DNA of 64,000 nt from Bacteroidota bacterium (GTDB taxonomy: Bacteria; Bacteroidota; Bacteroidia; NS11-12g; UBA9320). The translations under genes and the position numbers were made by a program. The stretch spans positions 62,001 through 126,000 of the forward strand of contig JABWCE010000006.1 of the NCBI GenBank assembly GCA_013359235.1, read 5' to 3'. The notes under the pieces are model-generated. The model was not told the DNA's origin, did no database searches, and saw only the letters and a list, made by a program, of their open reading frames with translations. Within the stretch, counting starts at the first letter, position 1; each line of letters opens with the position of its first letter. This document shows positions 24,947 through 32,488 of the stretch, one piece after another.

Positions 24947-25351
24947 TTATTTGATAATATTATTATCTCTCAAAACCTTTACCAGTTCGTCAACCTGCAA
25001 TGGCTTTGTAAGAAAATGAAGCACTTTGGGATTTTCTTTAGCTTTATTTATATCTCCTGCATCAATTGATGATGAAACCATAATTACTGCTGTATTTTTA
25101 GTTTTATTTTCATCCAATATTGAGTAAAGTTCTAAAAATTTAAACCCATTAATTACCGGCATGTGAATATCGAGAAGTATTAAATCCGGTGTTTCATCGG
25201 TCGAACAATTTTCTAAAAATTTTAGAGCTTTTTCTGCAAATTGAAATTTTAAAATTTTATGTGCTATTTTTTTATTTTCAATAAATTTTTCTTGTAGAAA
25301 CAAATCAAATTCATTGTCATCTACAAGCATTATTATTAGCGTATCAATCAT
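24947..25351 (-). CDS. Stand-alone response-regulator receiver protein
   Basis: 134 residues consisting only of a receiver domain: acidic residues in IIMLVDDNEFD, phospho-acceptor Asp in LILLDIHMPVING, conserved Ser in MVSSSID, and Lys in FLTKPLQ. It has no output domain. This CheY/Rcp1-like type usually acts by protein contact or as a phosphorelay intermediate. It is the last gene of the five-gene leftward operon, three bases after the receiver-kinase hybrid, which is its likely phosphodonor. Confidence 0.9.
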   Translation of the reverse strand: MIDTLIIMLVDDNEFDLFLQEKFIENKKIAHKILKFQFAEKALKFLENCSTDETPDLILLDIHMPVINGFKFLELYSILDENKTKNTAVIMVSSSIDAGDINKAKENPKVLHFLTKPLQVDELVKVLRDNNIIK

Positions 25352-25354
25352 TAA

Positions 25355-26461
25355 TTATGATGTTGGAGAAGTAGTATATTGTGATATTTTATTTGGTATT
25401 GAAATTTCGAATGAAGATCCTTCATTTAATTTAGAGGTAACTGTAATATCACCACCAACTTTATTTAGCGACTCTTTTACGATAAACAACCCTAATCCCG
25501 AGCCTTGTTTGTTATTTGTAATTTGTGCCCTGTAAAACATTTTAAATATTTTATCAATATGTTCTTCATCTATTCCTATTCCCGAATCGCTCACTGTAAT
25601 TTTAACAATTTCAGGCTTTGCATCAATTTTTACAGTTACTTTATGTTTTTCTCTTTCGGGATGTTTGTATTTTATGGCATTTCCAATTATATTATTTAAT
25701 ACAACTTTTAATCTGAAAGCATCTCCAGCAAATTCGCTATCTGATATATCCTGCACTTCAAATTCAGTATTTTGGTCTTGATTTCTAAGCAAATCAATAA
25801 TATCGTGAACCATTTCGTTTATATCAGCTTTTTCAATGCTTTCTTCAGAACGAGAGTTTTGATAATATTCAATTATATTTTTAACGTATCTGTCTAATTT
25901 GTTTACGCTGTTTTCAATAATATTAAAGTATTCATGATTTGTTGATTCGTCCATTTTTGCAAGCTGCACAATTCCTAAAATTGACATCAATGGTGAACGC
26001 AAATCATGAGAAACACTGTAAATAAACCTATTCAGTTCATCATTGGCTTTTTGGAGTTCTTCGTTTTTAAACTTCAATTCCTGTCCTTTCCAGTAAAGGT
26101 CACAGCAATTTTCCATCATCAATTTTAGTTTATCCCAGTCCCATGGTTTTTGTATGTATTTATTCACCCTTCCTCTGTTTATTGACTCAATTACAAGGTT
26201 TATATCAGATTGCCCTGTAATTAGCAATCTTATAGATTCGGGGTTTGAATCTAAAGTTTTCTCAAGAAACTCAACACCCGTCATAATAGGCATACGCTGG
26301 TCTGTTACTATTATTTGTATTGGTTGTTCTTTTAGTAAAGCTAAAGCTTCGTCGGGTACTGTTGCGGTATATACTTCATATTCTTTTCTAAAAAATGATT
26401 TGAAAGCCGTAAGGTTGTTTTCCTCATCATCAAGATACAATACTTTTATCTTATCACTCAT
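25355..26461 (-). CDS. Receiver-histidine kinase hybrid (cytoplasmic)
   Basis: 368 residues: an N-terminal receiver (VLYLDDEENNLTAFKSFF, phospho-acceptor in VTDQRMPIMTG, Lys in YIQKPWD), a short coiled coil, HisKA (FIYSVSHDLRSPLMSILG), and HATPase_c with DSGIGID and GSGLGLFIV. There is no transmembrane segment, so it is a cytoplasmic kinase controlled by phosphorylation of its own receiver. This is the usual layout for a kinase acting downstream of another kinase. The receiver is clearly paralogous to the lone receiver at 31881-32348. It sits 10 bases after the 7TM-DISM kinase gene. Confidence 0.92.
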   Translation of the reverse strand: MSDKIKVLYLDDEENNLTAFKSFFRKEYEVYTATVPDEALALLKEQPIQIIVTDQRMPIMTGVEFLEKTLDSNPESIRLLITGQSDINLVIESINRGRVNKYIQKPWDWDKLKLMMENCCDLYWKGQELKFKNEELQKANDELNRFIYSVSHDLRSPLMSILGIVQLAKMDESTNHEYFNIIENSVNKLDRYVKNIIEYYQNSRSEESIEKADINEMVHDIIDLLRNQDQNTEFEVQDISDSEFAGDAFRLKVVLNNIIGNAIKYKHPEREKHKVTVKIDAKPEIVKITVSDSGIGIDEEHIDKIFKMFYRAQITNNKQGSGLGLFIVKESLNKVGGDITVTSKLNEGSSFEISIPNKISQYTTSPTS

Positions 26462-26471
26462 ATTTTAATAT

Positions 26472-28646
26472 TTATACGGTTTCTATAGGTTTATTCTGTA
26501 ATTTGAGGTTTAAAATTAATGTGATTTTTGTGCCTTGACCCGGCTCTGATTCAATTTCAATTTTGGCACCATGACTTTCTATAATTCCAAATACTATTGA
26601 CATTCCAAGACCTGTGCCCTCGCCTACATCTTTTGTGGTAAAGAATGGTTCAAAAATTTTATCTTTCACTTCCTGTGTCATACCCATTCCTGTATCAATA
26701 CATTCAATATACACATGTTCATTTTTCAAATAACTGTTTATAGTAAGTTTGTGTTTTTCTCGTTCTTTATATTTATCCATTGCTTGTATGGCATTGTTAA
26801 ATATATTCATAAATACTTGATTCAATTTACCCGGATAACATTCTACAAGTGGAAGCTCGGCAAGATTTGTTTCTACTTCAATATTAGGAGGTGTAGAACT
26901 TCTCAATATTACAAGTGTAGATTCAATGCCTTTGTTAATATCAGCTTCTTTAATATCGCTTTCGTCTAAGTGGGAGAAATTTTTTAACCCTTTTACTATT
27001 TCGGCAGTGCGTTTAGCACCATCTTCAATTCCATTCATCAAAGTATCAATTTCGGTTTTTATATAATCTAAATCTATTTCTTTTTTGAATTTTTCAATTT
27101 CATTTATTTTTTCACTCAAATTTCCATCATCTGGTGAAATGGAACTATATTTATCAATTAATTCTAAAACATCTTTTATGTCCATATTTAAAGGTCTGAT
27201 GTTTGCACTTACAAAATTTATAGGATTATTAATTTCATGAGCAATTCCGGCTGTAAGTTGTCCGAGTGATGCCATTTTTTCAACCGAAACGAGTTGCGAT
27301 TGTGTTTCTTTCAGGTTTTTAAGTGTTACTTCTAATTCTGAATTTGATTGAGCAAGCTCTTCAGTTCTTTCATGTACTTTTTGTTCAAGAATTATATTTT
27401 GCTCTGTTATAAGTTTTCTGTTTTCTTCTAATGCATGCAAAGCTTCAACTTGTGACTTTTCTTTTTCTTTTTTCAATATGTTTATTCGGTCAGCAAGTGC
27501 AAATGACAAAAGAATAACTTCGGCTCCCGAACCAAAGTGCATTGTATAACGGGTAAAGTTGTTGTAAGGCAAAACCTCAAAATCTTTAAGTACATATATA
27601 CATATACCTACAAGAAACAATGACCAACCCACAAGAAAGAAACGGGCTTCGTGATTTCCCTGTCTGTAAACTTTAAAAGCAAATACCATCATAAAAACCG
27701 AGACTGCCGAAGCTGTAACTTCCATTACCTGAAAACTAAGACCATATTTGCCAGTAAAGCTTAAAATTATTGATACTGTGTAAGGTATTATAAACAAATA
27801 TGAATATAAAAAAACCTTGTAATTTCTTACCCTCATTTGCAAAAATTCTTTAAAAAACTCAAGCCCGGCAATACCTACTAATGAAGGAAAAATATAAGGG
27901 CTGTATATAGCAAGCCATGGGGTATTGGGCCACAAAAATTGAAATGGCAACCCTTGTAAACTTGTTTGAGTTAAAAGTATTAAAACTATATAAATTGAAT
28001 ACCACAGGTAACTTTTATCTCGTACTATTCCAAAAATAAAAAGGTTGTAAAGAAGCATTACCATCATTATTCCTATGTAAATACCAGAACCTATATTTCT
28101 GTTTGAAACTAATTTAAAGGCTGATTTTGTTGTTCCAACAAAAAGAGGTATTTGCATATTTTCTTTGCATTTTAATTCGAGGTAAAATGTTTTTTCGGTA
28201 CCCTTGGGTATTTCAATATCAAATAAATATTCAGGAGTTAAATATTTTCGGAGATGAAAAAACTGGTATTCACCCATCTTTAATACTTCAAATTTGTTAG
28301 TGTTTGCTTTAAAATCGTAAAAAACCACTTCATCTATTATCGGTTGATTAAGCTGAAGTATAAGATTATCGAGGTTAGATGTGTTTTTTATTATTATTTT
28401 CAACCAAACAGTAGATGATGTAATACCCATATTTGGCACATCTTTTTTACTTTTTTCAAACTTGTCAGATTTTACAATTTCATTAATTCCAAGTTTTCCT
28501 TTGGGATCGACAAGAATATACACATCTTTGCCAATGCTCAGATTTTGAGTTTCGTCATTGTAATTTACCTGAGCTATTAATTTTGAATTGTAAGCTACTA
28601 TACTTAAAAATAAAATAACTTTAACTAAAATATTTTTTTTAATCAT
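26472..28646 (-). CDS. 7TM-DISM sensor histidine kinase
   Basis: 724 residues: signal peptide, periplasmic 7TMR-DISMED2-like domain (about 35-180; jelly-roll fold thought to bind ligands), seven transmembrane helices (about 185-390, beginning [20 protein letters not shown]), a long coiled coil (about 390-460), HisKA with His470 ([19 protein letters not shown]), and HATPase_c ([17 protein letters not shown]). It senses an extracellular ligand and starts a phosphorelay. Its ATG overlaps the stop of the GNAT gene by four bases (ATGA), so sensing and acyltransferase are translationally coupled. Confidence 0.93.
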
Positions 28647-29350
28647 TTTTTATAATTTGGTAGTGTTAATTGATACTGAATTTCTATTTTTTCTTTGGTT
28701 CCCTGTTCTACAGTAAGTTGTTCGGGAAATAAACGTAGTGATTCCATTCTCATTTTATCATATTCATCCGCAGTAGAAAGTGTAGCTGCATTCATAATTC
28801 CCAATACTCTTGCAATGTAATTTTCGTTTGGATATTGAAATTCACCATTCATTCCTAAAGAATCATCTACAACAAAGCCTACCCTTCTGAACATTTCTAA
28901 AGTATATTCTGCACAAATTCCTACAAGTGTTCCAAAATCAAGCTGGTTTGCCATTGAAATACCGGCACGTGTAAGCAAAATGCTAATTCCTATGCCGGCA
29001 ACTCTTTTTGCGTTCCACAATGCACATAGCTCACCTACTCCACCGTTTTCTCTGTATTTTTTTACAATGTCGTGTATTTTTGGGTCCATTTTGCTTATTG
29101 CCTTTTCTACCGGTAGCCAATTTTGTTCATCAGATATTTGAACTCTTATACCTCCAACTATTTCCATATCAGGATAAATTTCTGCAACTATTCCGTAAAT
29201 GTTAGGGTTTTTCATCCACTCTGAGTTATTTGTTGTGATATTTGTTATACCATAGTCTTTTAAAACAGCAACATGACCATTAAGAAACTTTTCGCAAGTT
29301 TCAGGTTCTTCTATTGCTCTAAAAGCTCTAAAGCATAATCTTTCACTCAT
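28643..29350 (-). CDS. GNAT-fold acyltransferase resembling autoinducer / N-acyl amino acid synthases
   Basis: 235 residues. The pattern EIYPDMEIVGGIRVQIS followed by VGELCALWNAKRVAGIGIS and a C-terminal GICAEYTLEMFRRVGF resembles the GNAT fold of FeeM/LuxI-like synthases, which acylate small amines or amino acids. This is a pattern-based assignment; I see no single diagnostic catalytic residue and the substrate is unknown. Its ATG shares one base with the stop of the E1-nitroreductase gene (TAATG) and its stop overlaps the kinase start, so it is in the middle of a coupled operon. It could instead be an acyltransferase for a protein or lipid. Confidence 0.6.
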   Translation of the reverse strand: MSERLCFRAFRAIEEPETCEKFLNGHVAVLKDYGITNITTNNSEWMKNPNIYGIVAEIYPDMEIVGGIRVQISDEQNWLPVEKAISKMDPKIHDIVKKYRENGGVGELCALWNAKRVAGIGISILLTRAGISMANQLDFGTLVGICAEYTLEMFRRVGFVVDDSLGMNGEFQYPNENYIARVLGIMNAATLSTADEYDKMRMESLRLFPEQLTVEQGTKEKIEIQYQLTLPNYKK

Positions 29351-31653
29351 TACTCAATTTTATGAAATACCGCCTCCAACGGCCTTCTTAATGTTTTAAC
29401 TTTTGGCAAATCTGCTTTTGTAAGTCTGAATATCAAAATATCACCTTCACCTGGTTTTATTTTAAATATTTCTTCAAACTTAGGCCTCAATGCCCATAAT
29501 TTCTTTTGTCCTTCATCTGAAATATTATCTCCTTTTCCTTGTATAAGTCTGTTGTAAACAAAAATTGAAGAAGAAGTTGGCTGAAATGCCAAACCTTTCA
29601 AATTAGACGATATCCATACTCTTTGTAAAACTCTGCCTCCATTAAAATAATCGGTAAGTGTTTGTCCGTCCATTGAGAGAATTCCAACGGCACCGGCAGA
29701 ATCAATTGATTTTTTGGTTAATTTTTTAAAAGCATTCCCTCCCCCCCATTTGTTTACAAGTTCAATAACATCGCCTTCTTTTGCTATTCTTAATCCTGCC
29801 TTTTCAGAGTTAGAAACATCAAGTGTATTAATATCTACACCATCTCTTCTGGCATTGTTTTCGGCATCAGTCCACCTTATTTCATCAGAAAAATCAAGTT
29901 GACCTCCTTTTTCAAGAAGTCTTAATTTTTCAAGTTCACCAAGAATTTCACCAATATTGTTTAATTCCTCTTCGCTTGTAAAAAATCTTAGGTCTGCTCC
30001 TTTTGTTTCTTTTGCCAAACTTACCAAATCGTCAAGAATTTGGGGTTCAATATACGGTCTTTTTACCAAATTTCTATTAGTACATCTCAAATTTATTCCA
30101 TTTGCCATTTCAATCATTCGCATATCTGAAGATTTTTCGGGGAAAAACTTCACTTGAGCAACCAATTCTTTAATATTTTTTTCAGGAAAAACTTCAACTT
30201 TTGCATCAAGTTTCATTGTTTTGGCGTGAAGTACAGCATTTTCAAGACAAGCACCTAATGCAATACTTGCAGAAATATTTCCCCAACCTAAAAATACAGG
30301 ATTGCCATCAAGTGCAAAATACAACAGCAAAGAATTATTTTTCATAGCCCATTGCCAGGGTTGATAATTACCGCCCGAAGGAGCTCTTATAGCAGCTTCT
30401 AATATTTGTTTAACTTGCAAATCGCTTATTTGAGCTTGATTGGCTTCAAGTTGCACATTTAATTTTTGAGAAATACCTACCACATCGGTATAAGTAAATG
30501 GATCAACCCAAGGTTGAGGTTCTTTTGCTGGCACTTTATCACCAATCAACTCTTCGATGTCCACATGATATCTACCAGATTCAGAATAATAGCCTAAGAG
30601 TATTCTTCTTCCAACGTCTGCTGTAATGCCACCACCCATCGTTACAGAACTTGCAAGCTGTGGCCATGTAGTAATGGTTTGTTCTATTTCGAGCATTGAT
30701 GCTTTTAATCTTAACGAAGATGTTTCTATACCTAAAATATCGAGCATGTATGGTATTTTTTCTTCATTTGTTTTAAGAGTTTTTAAAGTTGCAATATCAA
30801 GATGATCAACCAAACCATGTAAAATTGCACGATTAGGTTCAAGGTCAAATCTTTCAACATCAACCATACATTTATCACTTGCTTCCATTATAACCGGAAC
30901 ACCAAGTTCTCTGGCTTTATGACGACATAATATTTTAATATCAAGCCCATCAGATTCTTCAATCAACAAATCAAGTTTGCCACCACCTGTAAAAAATTCA
31001 TTCATGTTTTCTTCAGTCAATCCGTCAATAAAACAAGTAACTTTTAAAAATGGATCTATCTCTGCTATCTCACGAGCTACCGAGTAAACTTTATAAATTC
31101 CCAAATTTTTAATTCCTGTTCTAATTCGGTTCAGGTTTGTAAGTTCTAATATATCAAAATCTGCAAGACGTATTTCATTGCAAATTCTTTCCATTGCAAT
31201 AGTAATAGCAACTGATTGACCTACAGAAAGCCCTATAACGCCAATTTTCTTATTGCTTAAAATTGCTTTTTCTTCGGGTGTAATTTTATATTGATTTCTA
31301 CTTGTTCGTATTTCAATAAATTCTTTTTCATCCGGTATATGCACCAATCTGTCAGACCAAGGATAATAAACCCACACACCATATTCTTCATTAGTTAAGG
31401 GCGAAATATGTTTAGCGGCTTGCTCCGACAATTGTTCGCTAGTAAACTTAATATTAGGCGTTCTCATTTTCATAAGTTCTTTCATCTGGTCAAACATGTA
31501 ATCATGCACTTTAAGACCGGGCTTCTTTAATAATTCAAAAAATTCTTGTTTTTGTTTTTCATCTGTCAATCTATAAAAGACAGGCTTTATCAGATTTTCA
31601 TTCTTTGATTGCTCAATTATTAATTCTTCAAGCTTTAATTTAATATTTTTCAT
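29350..31653 (-). CDS. E1/ThiF-like adenylyltransferase-nitroreductase fusion (MoeY/Rv1355c family)
   Basis: 767 residues in three parts. Residues 1-130 are a family-specific N-terminal region. Residues about 130-400 are a ThiF/E1 Rossmann domain: KKIGVIGLSVGQS nucleotide loop (138-147), DFDILELTNLNR with the ATP-Mg Asp and Arg (165-176), and Lys188. No CxxC zinc pairs are visible. Residues about 410-767 are an FMN-dependent nitroreductase fold (AIRAPSGGNYQPW at 422-433). The combination matches the Rv1355c/MoeY family, whose reaction is unknown. The fusion could adenylate a carboxylate and then oxidise or reduce it. It is the first gene of the leftward signalling operon. Confidence 0.85.
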   Translation of the reverse strand: MKNIKLKLEELIIEQSKNENLIKPVFYRLTDEKQKQEFFELLKKPGLKVHDYMFDQMKELMKMRTPNIKFTSEQLSEQAAKHISPLTNEEYGVWVYYPWSDRLVHIPDEKEFIEIRTSRNQYKITPEEKAILSNKKIGVIGLSVGQSVAITIAMERICNEIRLADFDILELTNLNRIRTGIKNLGIYKVYSVAREIAEIDPFLKVTCFIDGLTEENMNEFFTGGGKLDLLIEESDGLDIKILCRHKARELGVPVIMEASDKCMVDVERFDLEPNRAILHGLVDHLDIATLKTLKTNEEKIPYMLDILGIETSSLRLKASMLEIEQTITTWPQLASSVTMGGGITADVGRRILLGYYSESGRYHVDIEELIGDKVPAKEPQPWVDPFTYTDVVGISQKLNVQLEANQAQISDLQVKQILEAAIRAPSGGNYQPWQWAMKNNSLLLYFALDGNPVFLGWGNISASIALGACLENAVLHAKTMKLDAKVEVFPEKNIKELVAQVKFFPEKSSDMRMIEMANGINLRCTNRNLVKRPYIEPQILDDLVSLAKETKGADLRFFTSEEELNNIGEILGELEKLRLLEKGGQLDFSDEIRWTDAENNARRDGVDINTLDVSNSEKAGLRIAKEGDVIELVNKWGGGNAFKKLTKKSIDSAGAVGILSMDGQTLTDYFNGGRVLQRVWISSNLKGLAFQPTSSSIFVYNRLIQGKGDNISDEGQKKLWALRPKFEEIFKIKPGEGDILIFRLTKADLPKVKTLRRPLEAVFHKIE

Positions 31654-31783
31654 ATTTATTTTTTTACTAACTAATCATAGCAAAATTGAATAATATAAAG
31701 CAATTTGTGATATTTTTTTTTAACATCAAAACAATAGTGAACTATTTATTTGACACATTTTTTTTAAATTATAAAATTATGTT

Positions 31784-31813
31784 TTGAATAAAGTTTTATT
31801 TACTTTATCTTTG
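31784..31813 (+). promoter_or_regulatory. Distal promoter P1 of the lone receiver gene (TTG-19 bp-TATCTTTG)
   Basis: TTG at 31784-31786, 19-bp spacer, and TATCTTTG at 31806-31813: a full match to the Bacteroidota -33/-7 promoter. Confidence 0.65.
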
Positions 31814-31841
31814 AAAAAGAAATTTAAACAAGTTACATTTG
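31811..31841 (+). promoter_or_regulatory. Proximal promoter P2 of the lone receiver gene (TTG-20 bp-TACATTTG)
   Basis: TTG at 31811-31813 (the end of the P1 -7 box), 20-bp spacer, and TACATTTG at 31834-31841. The two promoters overlap, so polymerase bound at one should exclude the other. The ATG is 39 bases after the box. The remaining part of the 227-base spacer (31654-31880) towards the leftward operon shows no exact -7 box for that operon. Confidence 0.6.
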
Positions 31842-31880
31842 AAGATTAATTTATAAGTAATTATTTAAATAAAGAAAACA

Positions 31881-32348
31881 ATGGAAAACACACAGGAAAT
31901 TAGTGTTTTGTACGTTGATGACGAAGAAAACAACTTAGTTGCTTTTAAAGCTAGTTTTAGAAGAGAATTTAAAGTGTTTACTGCTCTCTCGGCTGTTGAT
32001 GCAAAAGAAATTCTTAAAAATAATATAATTCATGTATTAATAACAGACCAACGTATGCCTGTAACAACTGGTTCTGAATTGCTTGCACAGGCCGTACAAG
32101 ATTACCCCGACCAAATAAGAATTTTACTTACCGGATACTCTGATATTGACGCTTTGAAAGATGCCATTAACCTTGGACAAATTTATTGCTATCTTCAGAA
32201 GCCATGGAATGAAAACGAATTGAAAGACACAATAATTAAAGCTTACAGCATTTATAAAAGTAAAAAGGATAAAGAAGCCTATACAGGTAAACTTGAAGAA
32301 AGCAACGAACAACTTGAATTTTATCTTAGACAAAAGTTGTTGTCTTAA
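31881..32348 (+). CDS. Stand-alone receiver protein with C-terminal coiled coil
   Basis: 155 residues: a receiver (VLYVDDEENNLVAFKASF, phospho-acceptor in LITDQRMPVTTG, Thr in LLTGYSD, Lys in YLQKPWN) and then about 35 residues of charged helix (KLEESNEQLEFYLRQKLLS) that stop where a kinase or cyclase would begin in longer relatives. It is clearly paralogous to the receiver of the hybrid kinase at 25355-26461 and is transcribed away from that operon. It may be a phosphate sink or connector; the stop appears genuine because a strong terminator follows. Confidence 0.88.
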   Translation: MENTQEISVLYVDDEENNLVAFKASFRREFKVFTALSAVDAKEILKNNIIHVLITDQRMPVTTGSELLAQAVQDYPDQIRILLTGYSDIDALKDAINLGQIYCYLQKPWNENELKDTIIKAYSIYKSKKDKEAYTGKLEESNEQLEFYLRQKLLS

Positions 32349-32402: not shown

Positions 32403-32406
32403 ATTG

Positions 32407-32488
32407 TGCGGATGATAGGACTCGAACCTACACGCCGCGAAGCACCAGATCCTAAGTCTGGCATGGCTACCAATTACATCACATCCGC
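32407..32488 (-). tRNA. tRNA-Leu (anticodon TAG)
   Basis: The minus strand gives acceptor GCGGATG/CATCCGC with discriminator A, anticodon arm CCAGA-CTTAGGA-TCTGG (anticodon TAG), a long class II variable arm (TGCTTCGCGGCGT), and a T arm with GGTTCGAGTCC. CCA is not encoded. All stems pair. Confidence 0.95.

Follow-up and report, generated by a model that had tools for sequence, protein, structure and literature searches.

In the CqsA/CqsS and LqsA/LqsS systems, the gene of a signal synthase adjoins the gene of the membrane kinase that reads its product, and receivers follow. RetS and LadS are 7TMR-DISM kinases with a DISMED2, 7TM and kinase architecture. Enzymes that make acyl-oxazolones are known from Mycobacterium tuberculosis, in which Rv1356c (TrzA) produces N-acyl-tryptophan and the ThiF domain of Rv1355c (TrzS) cyclises it with ATP to an oxazolone, the flavin mononucleotide (FMN) domain then desaturating the ring with O2 (PMC12856293, Dec 2025). 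TyzACB of M. tuberculosis (PMC10404671) and OxzAB of Pseudoalteromonas rubra carry out equivalent chemistry on tyrosine or phenylalanine. The role of acyl-oxazolones was called "a major unresolved question" by the TrzAS group (PMC12856293). Here, we analyse a 64,000-nucleotide stretch of a Bacteroidota bacterium genome (contig JABWCE010000006.1, positions 62,001 to 126,000; hereafter the window) that carries a cassette of six genes encoding a TrzS-family enzyme, a GNAT-type N-acyltransferase, a 7TMR-DISM kinase, a receiver-kinase hybrid and two lone receivers. On the strength of the family reaction, the conserved cassette, a constant GNAT-kinase pair and co-variation, we think it probable that this cassette is a self-contained chemical signalling system, in which the enzymes would produce an oxazolone-type molecule derived from an N-acyl amino acid, and the DISM kinase would sense this molecule and feed a phosphorelay.

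The source genome comprises 2.65 Mb in 44 contigs, the window having a G+C content of about 30%, and its nearest named relative is a Bacteroidia metagenome-assembled genome with 88% identity in the ThiF fusion. The original prediction of five joined leftward genes and a divergent receiver was borne out by six open reading frames in which every junction is an overlap (4 nt between DISM kinase and GNAT, 1 nt between GNAT and ThiF fusion) or a gap of at most 10 nt (3 nt between RR1 and RR-HK, 10 nt between RR-HK and DISM kinase). Searches of Pfam and NCBIfam, which served for domain assignment of the window proteins, likewise confirmed the calls of a ThiF-nitroreductase fusion, a 7TM-DISM kinase, receivers and HisKA/HATPase domains. 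The features are as follows.

24947..25351, minus strand: RR1, lone receiver, 134 aa (PF00072, 4e-15; D61 (acceptor), S93 and K116 kept)
25355..26461, minus strand: RR-HK, soluble receiver-HisKA-HATPase hybrid, 368 aa (domain matches; D54, H152)
26472..28646, minus strand: 7TMR-DISM membrane histidine kinase, 724 aa (DISMED2 39-170, 7TM 185-387, kinase part about 450-715, H470)
28643..29350, minus strand: GNAT-type N-acyltransferase, 235 aa, proposed N-acyl amino acid synthase in a TrzA-like position (family hidden Markov model, HMM)
29350..31653, minus strand: ThiF(E1-like)-FMN oxidase fusion (ThiF-FDO), 767 aa, TrzS/Rv1355c family, proposed cyclase and desaturase (NF005901)
31654..31880, no strand: divergent intergenic region, presumed two-way promoter, with an imperfect 28-bp palindrome at 31726-31753
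31881..32348, plus strand: RR2, divergent lone receiver with a short C-terminal tail, 155 aa (D56, T84, K107)

The likeness of this locus to CqsA/CqsS and LqsA/LqsS lies in the pairing of synthase and sensor kinase, whereas the synthase and the sensor domain are unrelated and product class and phylum are different. RetS and LadS differ from the window kinase in that no putative ligand synthase is known to be encoded alongside them. The TrzAS enzymes of mycobacteria and Rhodococcus, which make N-acyl tryptazolones, have in common with the window a ThiF-FDO fusion of the same NCBIfam family and a partner N-acyltransferase gene, but a 7TMR-DISM kinase, a receiver-kinase and lone receivers are not described there, and the GNAT is only distantly related (PMC12856293). 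TyzACB and OxzAB provide the same three activities as the window (N-acyltransferase, ThiF cyclase, flavin oxidase), but from separate genes or another subfamily, and a linked sensor kinase is not described for them; a sequence network in the paper on these enzymes sets TrzS apart from TyzB and OxzB, and the model of TyzA resembles FeeM and BjaI (PMC10404671). Stieleriacine and N-acyl dehydrotyrosine clusters combine NasY, ThiF, a nitroreductase and a methyltransferase, with tailoring as in the variants described below, but they are natural product clusters of Planctomycetota and Proteobacteria for which the portion of the report drawn on here mentions no cognate kinase (PMC12479983).

Our sample of 395 Bacteroidia genomes shows that the cassette recurs across the class. 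ThiF was found at E 1e-60 or better in 68 of them; 76 loci were fetched and their genes re-called, 71 not being cut by a contig end. ThiF and GNAT stood together in 67 of these 71, and a DISM kinase lay on the same strand in 66 of the 67, usually straight after the GNAT, the GNAT preceding ThiF in a few loci. The receiver-kinase came next in most of them and a divergent receiver was present in nearly all, adjoining the cassette in most, giving a recurrent order in Bacteroidia of divergent receiver, then ThiF with or without FDO, GNAT, 7TMR-DISM kinase, receiver-kinase and receiver. Outside Bacteroidia the cassette is rare, the phylum sample yielding a single genome from a different class, with the genes in the same order. 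A profile search with the GNAT was two-peaked (75/395 genomes, with E from 1e-100 to 4e-61 apart from a single outlier at 3e-20, and nothing in the weaker range as far as 1e-8), and a DISM kinase lay within 2.7 kb of the GNAT in 73 of the 75 GNAT genomes, or 73 of the 74 with readable context; of the two lacking a kinase match, one is truncated where its contig stops but still shows the divergent RR2, and the other is the outlier, G298. The window genome encodes one 7TMR-DISM protein, so the pairing is not a density effect and, as the block recurs across Bacteroidia, the window arrangement is far beyond chance. Such regular linkage of synthase and sensor genes is found in quorum-sensing synthase-receptor pairs. 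The claim that synthesis and sensing belong together, which homologues regularly found apart from kinases would have weakened, survived for the GNAT and less completely for ThiF-FDO, as discussed below.

The enzyme that accompanies this pair varies. About two thirds of loci have ThiF fused to the FMN domain and the remainder have ThiF alone (about 370 aa), and this state switches several times on both the sensor tree and the ThiF tree. Where ThiF was absent and the sensor present, the order was kept; the slot held a 255-aa class I S-adenosylmethionine methyltransferase in 7 loci and an ICMT-type membrane methyltransferase in one, and was empty in one more. The methyltransferase-slot cassettes are L173-L179 and L181, and L183 has neither ThiF nor methyltransferase. 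Since a methyltransferase usually fills the slot where ThiF is absent, GNAT and DISM kinase are the constant pair. Cyclisation and ICMT-type methylation both act on the carboxylate, which suggests that whatever enzyme holds the slot would cap an N-acyl amino acid at its carboxylate. The 7 sensors of the methyltransferase type form one clade (Shimodaira-Hasegawa-like approximate likelihood ratio test, SH-aLRT, 92), and their genomes come from four families, two of which also hold ThiF-type cassettes.

We used partial Mantel tests on the 46 loci with all parts, with sensor tests controlling for the kinase half, and take their p-values, which are liberal for rows sharing ancestry, as support and not as proof. 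The GNAT co-varied with the extracellular domain (r 0.35) and with the 7TM region (r 0.46; GNAT-sensor range 0.29-0.46), both at p 0.001, and ThiF with the extracellular domain (r 0.35, p 0.001). Receivers and sensor showed no significant correlation in the same loci, and RR2 followed the kinase half given the sensor (r 0.57, p 0.001). Within the DISM kinase, the sensor half is thus the part that varies together with the biosynthetic enzymes, and the kinase half the part that varies with the receivers. The pattern held with rank distances, with cubic terms and with at most two loci per family, except for ThiF against 7TM, which was weaker. Co-variation of sensor domain and synthase is again a property of quorum-sensing synthase-receptor pairs. 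An unlikely explanation is that no ligand connects the parts, the cassette being a mobile block inherited jointly: the kinase gene has its 5' (sensor) end directly against the enzyme genes, so that the sensor half is nearer to them and recombination inside the block could give the same gradient. However, RR2 lies on the other side of the enzyme genes, adjoining ThiF, yet it tracks the kinase half rather than the sensor, a pattern that plain linkage fails to explain. The GNAT-kinase pair is also kept across many families while the tailoring gene swaps, which argues for selection on the pair.

The same data bear on a somewhat less remote possibility, although still an improbable one, that the product of the cassette is an acyl-oxazolone-type lipid or bioactive compound serving envelope, antibiosis or stress purposes and that the DISM kinase reads an outside cue (such as an ion, glycan or envelope stress) simply to turn production on or off. 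7TMR-DISM kinases read varied cues, biosynthesis operons commonly have regulators of their own, and oxazolone production in Proteobacteria is stress-inducible (PMC12856293). However, the co-variation between sensor half and enzymes exceeds what the kinase half explains and the sensor clade tracks the tailoring enzyme, neither of which an unrelated cue predicts, and most loci have no DNA-binding regulator in the cassette.

What the enzymes make can be proposed from their family. The window fusion has a ThiF domain (9.5e-13) and a nitroreductase domain (3e-5) in Pfam, and it is a full-length match to the Rv1355c family (NCBIfam NF005901, 2e-233, 776.8 bits against a curated cut-off of 476), with about 31% identity to actinobacterial plasmid homologues. 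The original prediction held that no reaction had been assigned to this family, which no longer applies, Rv1355c being TrzS (PMC12856293). The adenylation Asp of the EESD/EECD motif is D235 in the window protein and is invariant in 74/74 rows of our alignment; judging from the motif, it should correspond to D217 of Msmeg TrzS, the tested enzyme. The partner N-acyltransferase gene adjoins ThiF-FDO, as in TrzS loci. We propose, from the reaction demonstrated for the Rv1355c/TrzS family, that the window ThiF-FDO is an oxazolone cyclase-desaturase, an assignment that strengthens the case for synthesis and sensing.

The GNAT itself is more divergent. The 235-aa window protein has no match of its own in Pfam or NCBIfam, and the label "GNAT" in the original prediction probably holds, at the family level only, as it is 10 of 41 orthologues, and not the window protein, that match Acetyltransf_1 (PF00583; best 3e-4). 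FeeM (PF21926) matches 2 of the 41 (best E 0.1), a few orthologues weakly match exosort_acyl, and the window GNAT does not reach the Pfam gathering score of FeeM; it may work like FeeM though it is not classed as FeeM. A PDB sequence search with the GNAT profile gave nothing below E 0.2. Among 1560 proteins, the family HMM found the protein encoded beside a TrzS-family (Rv1355c) gene in two Rhodococcus plasmids (22-23 bits, E 3.5e-6; best decoy 4.7 bits), so that the window GNAT is homologous, though only distantly, to this neighbour of TrzS. A Streptomyces GNAT beside a ThiF (L195) belongs to an Acetyltransf_3 branch that the family HMM misses, and was not used as support. In a Nitratidesulfovibrio plasmid, FeeM, ThiF and nitroreductase form a single protein (L196 4074-7043; N-terminus PF21926 FeeM, 8e-45), implying that elsewhere these two enzymes work in one pathway with an N-acyl amino acid synthase; the gene adjoins PEP-CTERM genes. 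One cassette (L080, 11780-12475 and upstream; genome G465) has two tandem GNAT-family genes, possibly for two acyl or amino acid specificities.

Protein-modifying members exist in both the ThiF/E1 and the GNAT fold, and ThiF might act like E1 enzymes by adenylating or modifying a receiver or other protein, with the GNAT acylating proteins. We hold this to be very unlikely, given the placement of the fusion with TrzS, a small-molecule cyclase (PMC12856293), the lack of a ubiquitin-like or carrier protein in the cassette, the existence of the FeeM-ThiF-FDO chain and the fact that the alternative tailoring genes are methyltransferases.

The signalling proteins have conserved phospho-residues. The DISM kinase combines 7TMR-DISM_7TM (2e-53) and DISMED2 (8e-27) in Pfam with a HisKA/HATPase part, the HisKA match (21 bits) lying below its cut-off; H470 is present in 63/63 aligned sequences and N618 is kept. 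The acceptor Asp and the Lys are invariant in all three receiver families (RR1 D61 and K116 each in 24/24, RR2 D56 and K107 each in 64/64). The divergent receiver, called paralogous in the original prediction, is a paralogue of the RR-HK receiver (38% identity, 1e-37), RR1 being ruled out at E 0.18. Because they are paralogues, RR2 and the RR-HK receiver may share the DISM kinase as donor, both being its targets, with RR2 acting as a sink for phosphate or as an output in parallel. The hybrid takes the form of a PAS-HisKA_3 protein in some loci, and NarL/LuxR-type response regulators lie near a few cassettes with this core (L176, 12373-13014, and L084 on the same strand, L124 on the opposite strand), where they would give a DNA-binding exit.

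In the signalling system that we favour, the GNAT would acylate an amino acid, as its homology suggests, and the ThiF domain would adenylate and cyclise the N-acyl amino acid to an acyl-oxazolone that the FMN domain would desaturate, by analogy with the Rv1355c/TrzS reaction. The product or a close relative would bind the DISMED2/7TM half and set kinase activity, as the conserved pairing and co-variation suggest, and phosphate would pass, judging from domains and co-variation, from the DISM kinase to the RR-HK receiver and RR2 and then to RR1. Output would probably be via protein contact here and via a DNA-binding response regulator in some relatives; for the predicted protein-contact response, the window, with no linked DNA-binding output, leaves it possible, but a few relatives add a LuxR/NarL-type regulator. 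The idea that the enzymes make the molecule that the kinase detects is partly supported, with strong comparative backing from the GNAT-kinase pairing and the co-variation with the sensor half.

Several points weigh against this proposal. Tryptazolones are mostly inside cells and acyl-tryptophans outside (PMC12856293), so the sensed species could be the intermediate, and the window cassette contains no exporter and is linked to no DNA-binding output. The AlphaFold2 model of the GNAT, from five sequences, reached a predicted local distance difference test (pLDDT) score of 49. The GNAT shows co-variation with the kinase half too (r 0.40 when the sensor is controlled for), the Mantel p-values are liberal as noted, and co-transfer of a linked block yields part of the signal. 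Oxazolone-making enzymes occur without kinases in Actinomycetota, and ThiF-FDO lacks both GNAT and kinase in 4 of the 71 Bacteroidota loci, which rules out that it always accompanies the kinase; these four are not one clade on the ThiF tree. All four (L039, L040, L041 and L107) also lack receivers and have unrelated genes alongside. One genome, G304, combines the orphan ThiF-FDO of L107 with a ThiF-less GNAT-kinase cassette (L183) on a different contig, possibly acting in trans.

The wider proposal, which we regard as evenly poised, is a class-wide self-signalling family of Bacteroidia with a constant N-acyltransferase and 7TMR-DISM kinase, in which the remaining enzyme can be exchanged (a ThiF cyclase, either alone or joined to the desaturase, or a methyltransferase) and probably caps the N-acyl amino acid carboxylate; the DISM kinase would be the first acyl-oxazolone-type receptor. 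A literature search of sources other than subscription papers and preprints found no publication joining 7TMR-DISM with ThiF, and no description of the cassette in the literature on oxazolones, N-acyl amino acid synthases or Bacteroidetes signalling. Enzymes, kinase and synthase-kinase pairs are each of known kinds; as far as can be told, the combination, its class-wide conservation and the exchangeable tailoring enzyme are new. A linked, co-varying sensor kinase is a concrete receptor candidate for acyl-oxazolones, and a possible answer to the role of these orphan lipids. If the proposal is true, Bacteroidia own a cognate synthase-receptor pair in about a fifth of the sampled genomes of the class (75/395), and ligand class would be predictable from the tailoring enzyme.

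The trzAS locus of M. tuberculosis is flanked by cyclic di-GMP (c-di-GMP) signalling genes (PMC12856293). GGDEF genes near TrzS-like genes on the Rhodococcus plasmids (L194 2946-3926 and L198 2825-3907) echo this arrangement and would connect oxazolone enzymes with signalling a second time, independently. In the window, the intergenic palindrome, TCAAAACAATAGT-GA-ACTATTTATTTGA, is partly retained in the nearest relative; by a rough estimate it is at chance level for DNA of 30% GC, and it is a lead only. A tRNA-Leu gene at 32406-32488 lies directly behind RR2, a typical insertion edge.

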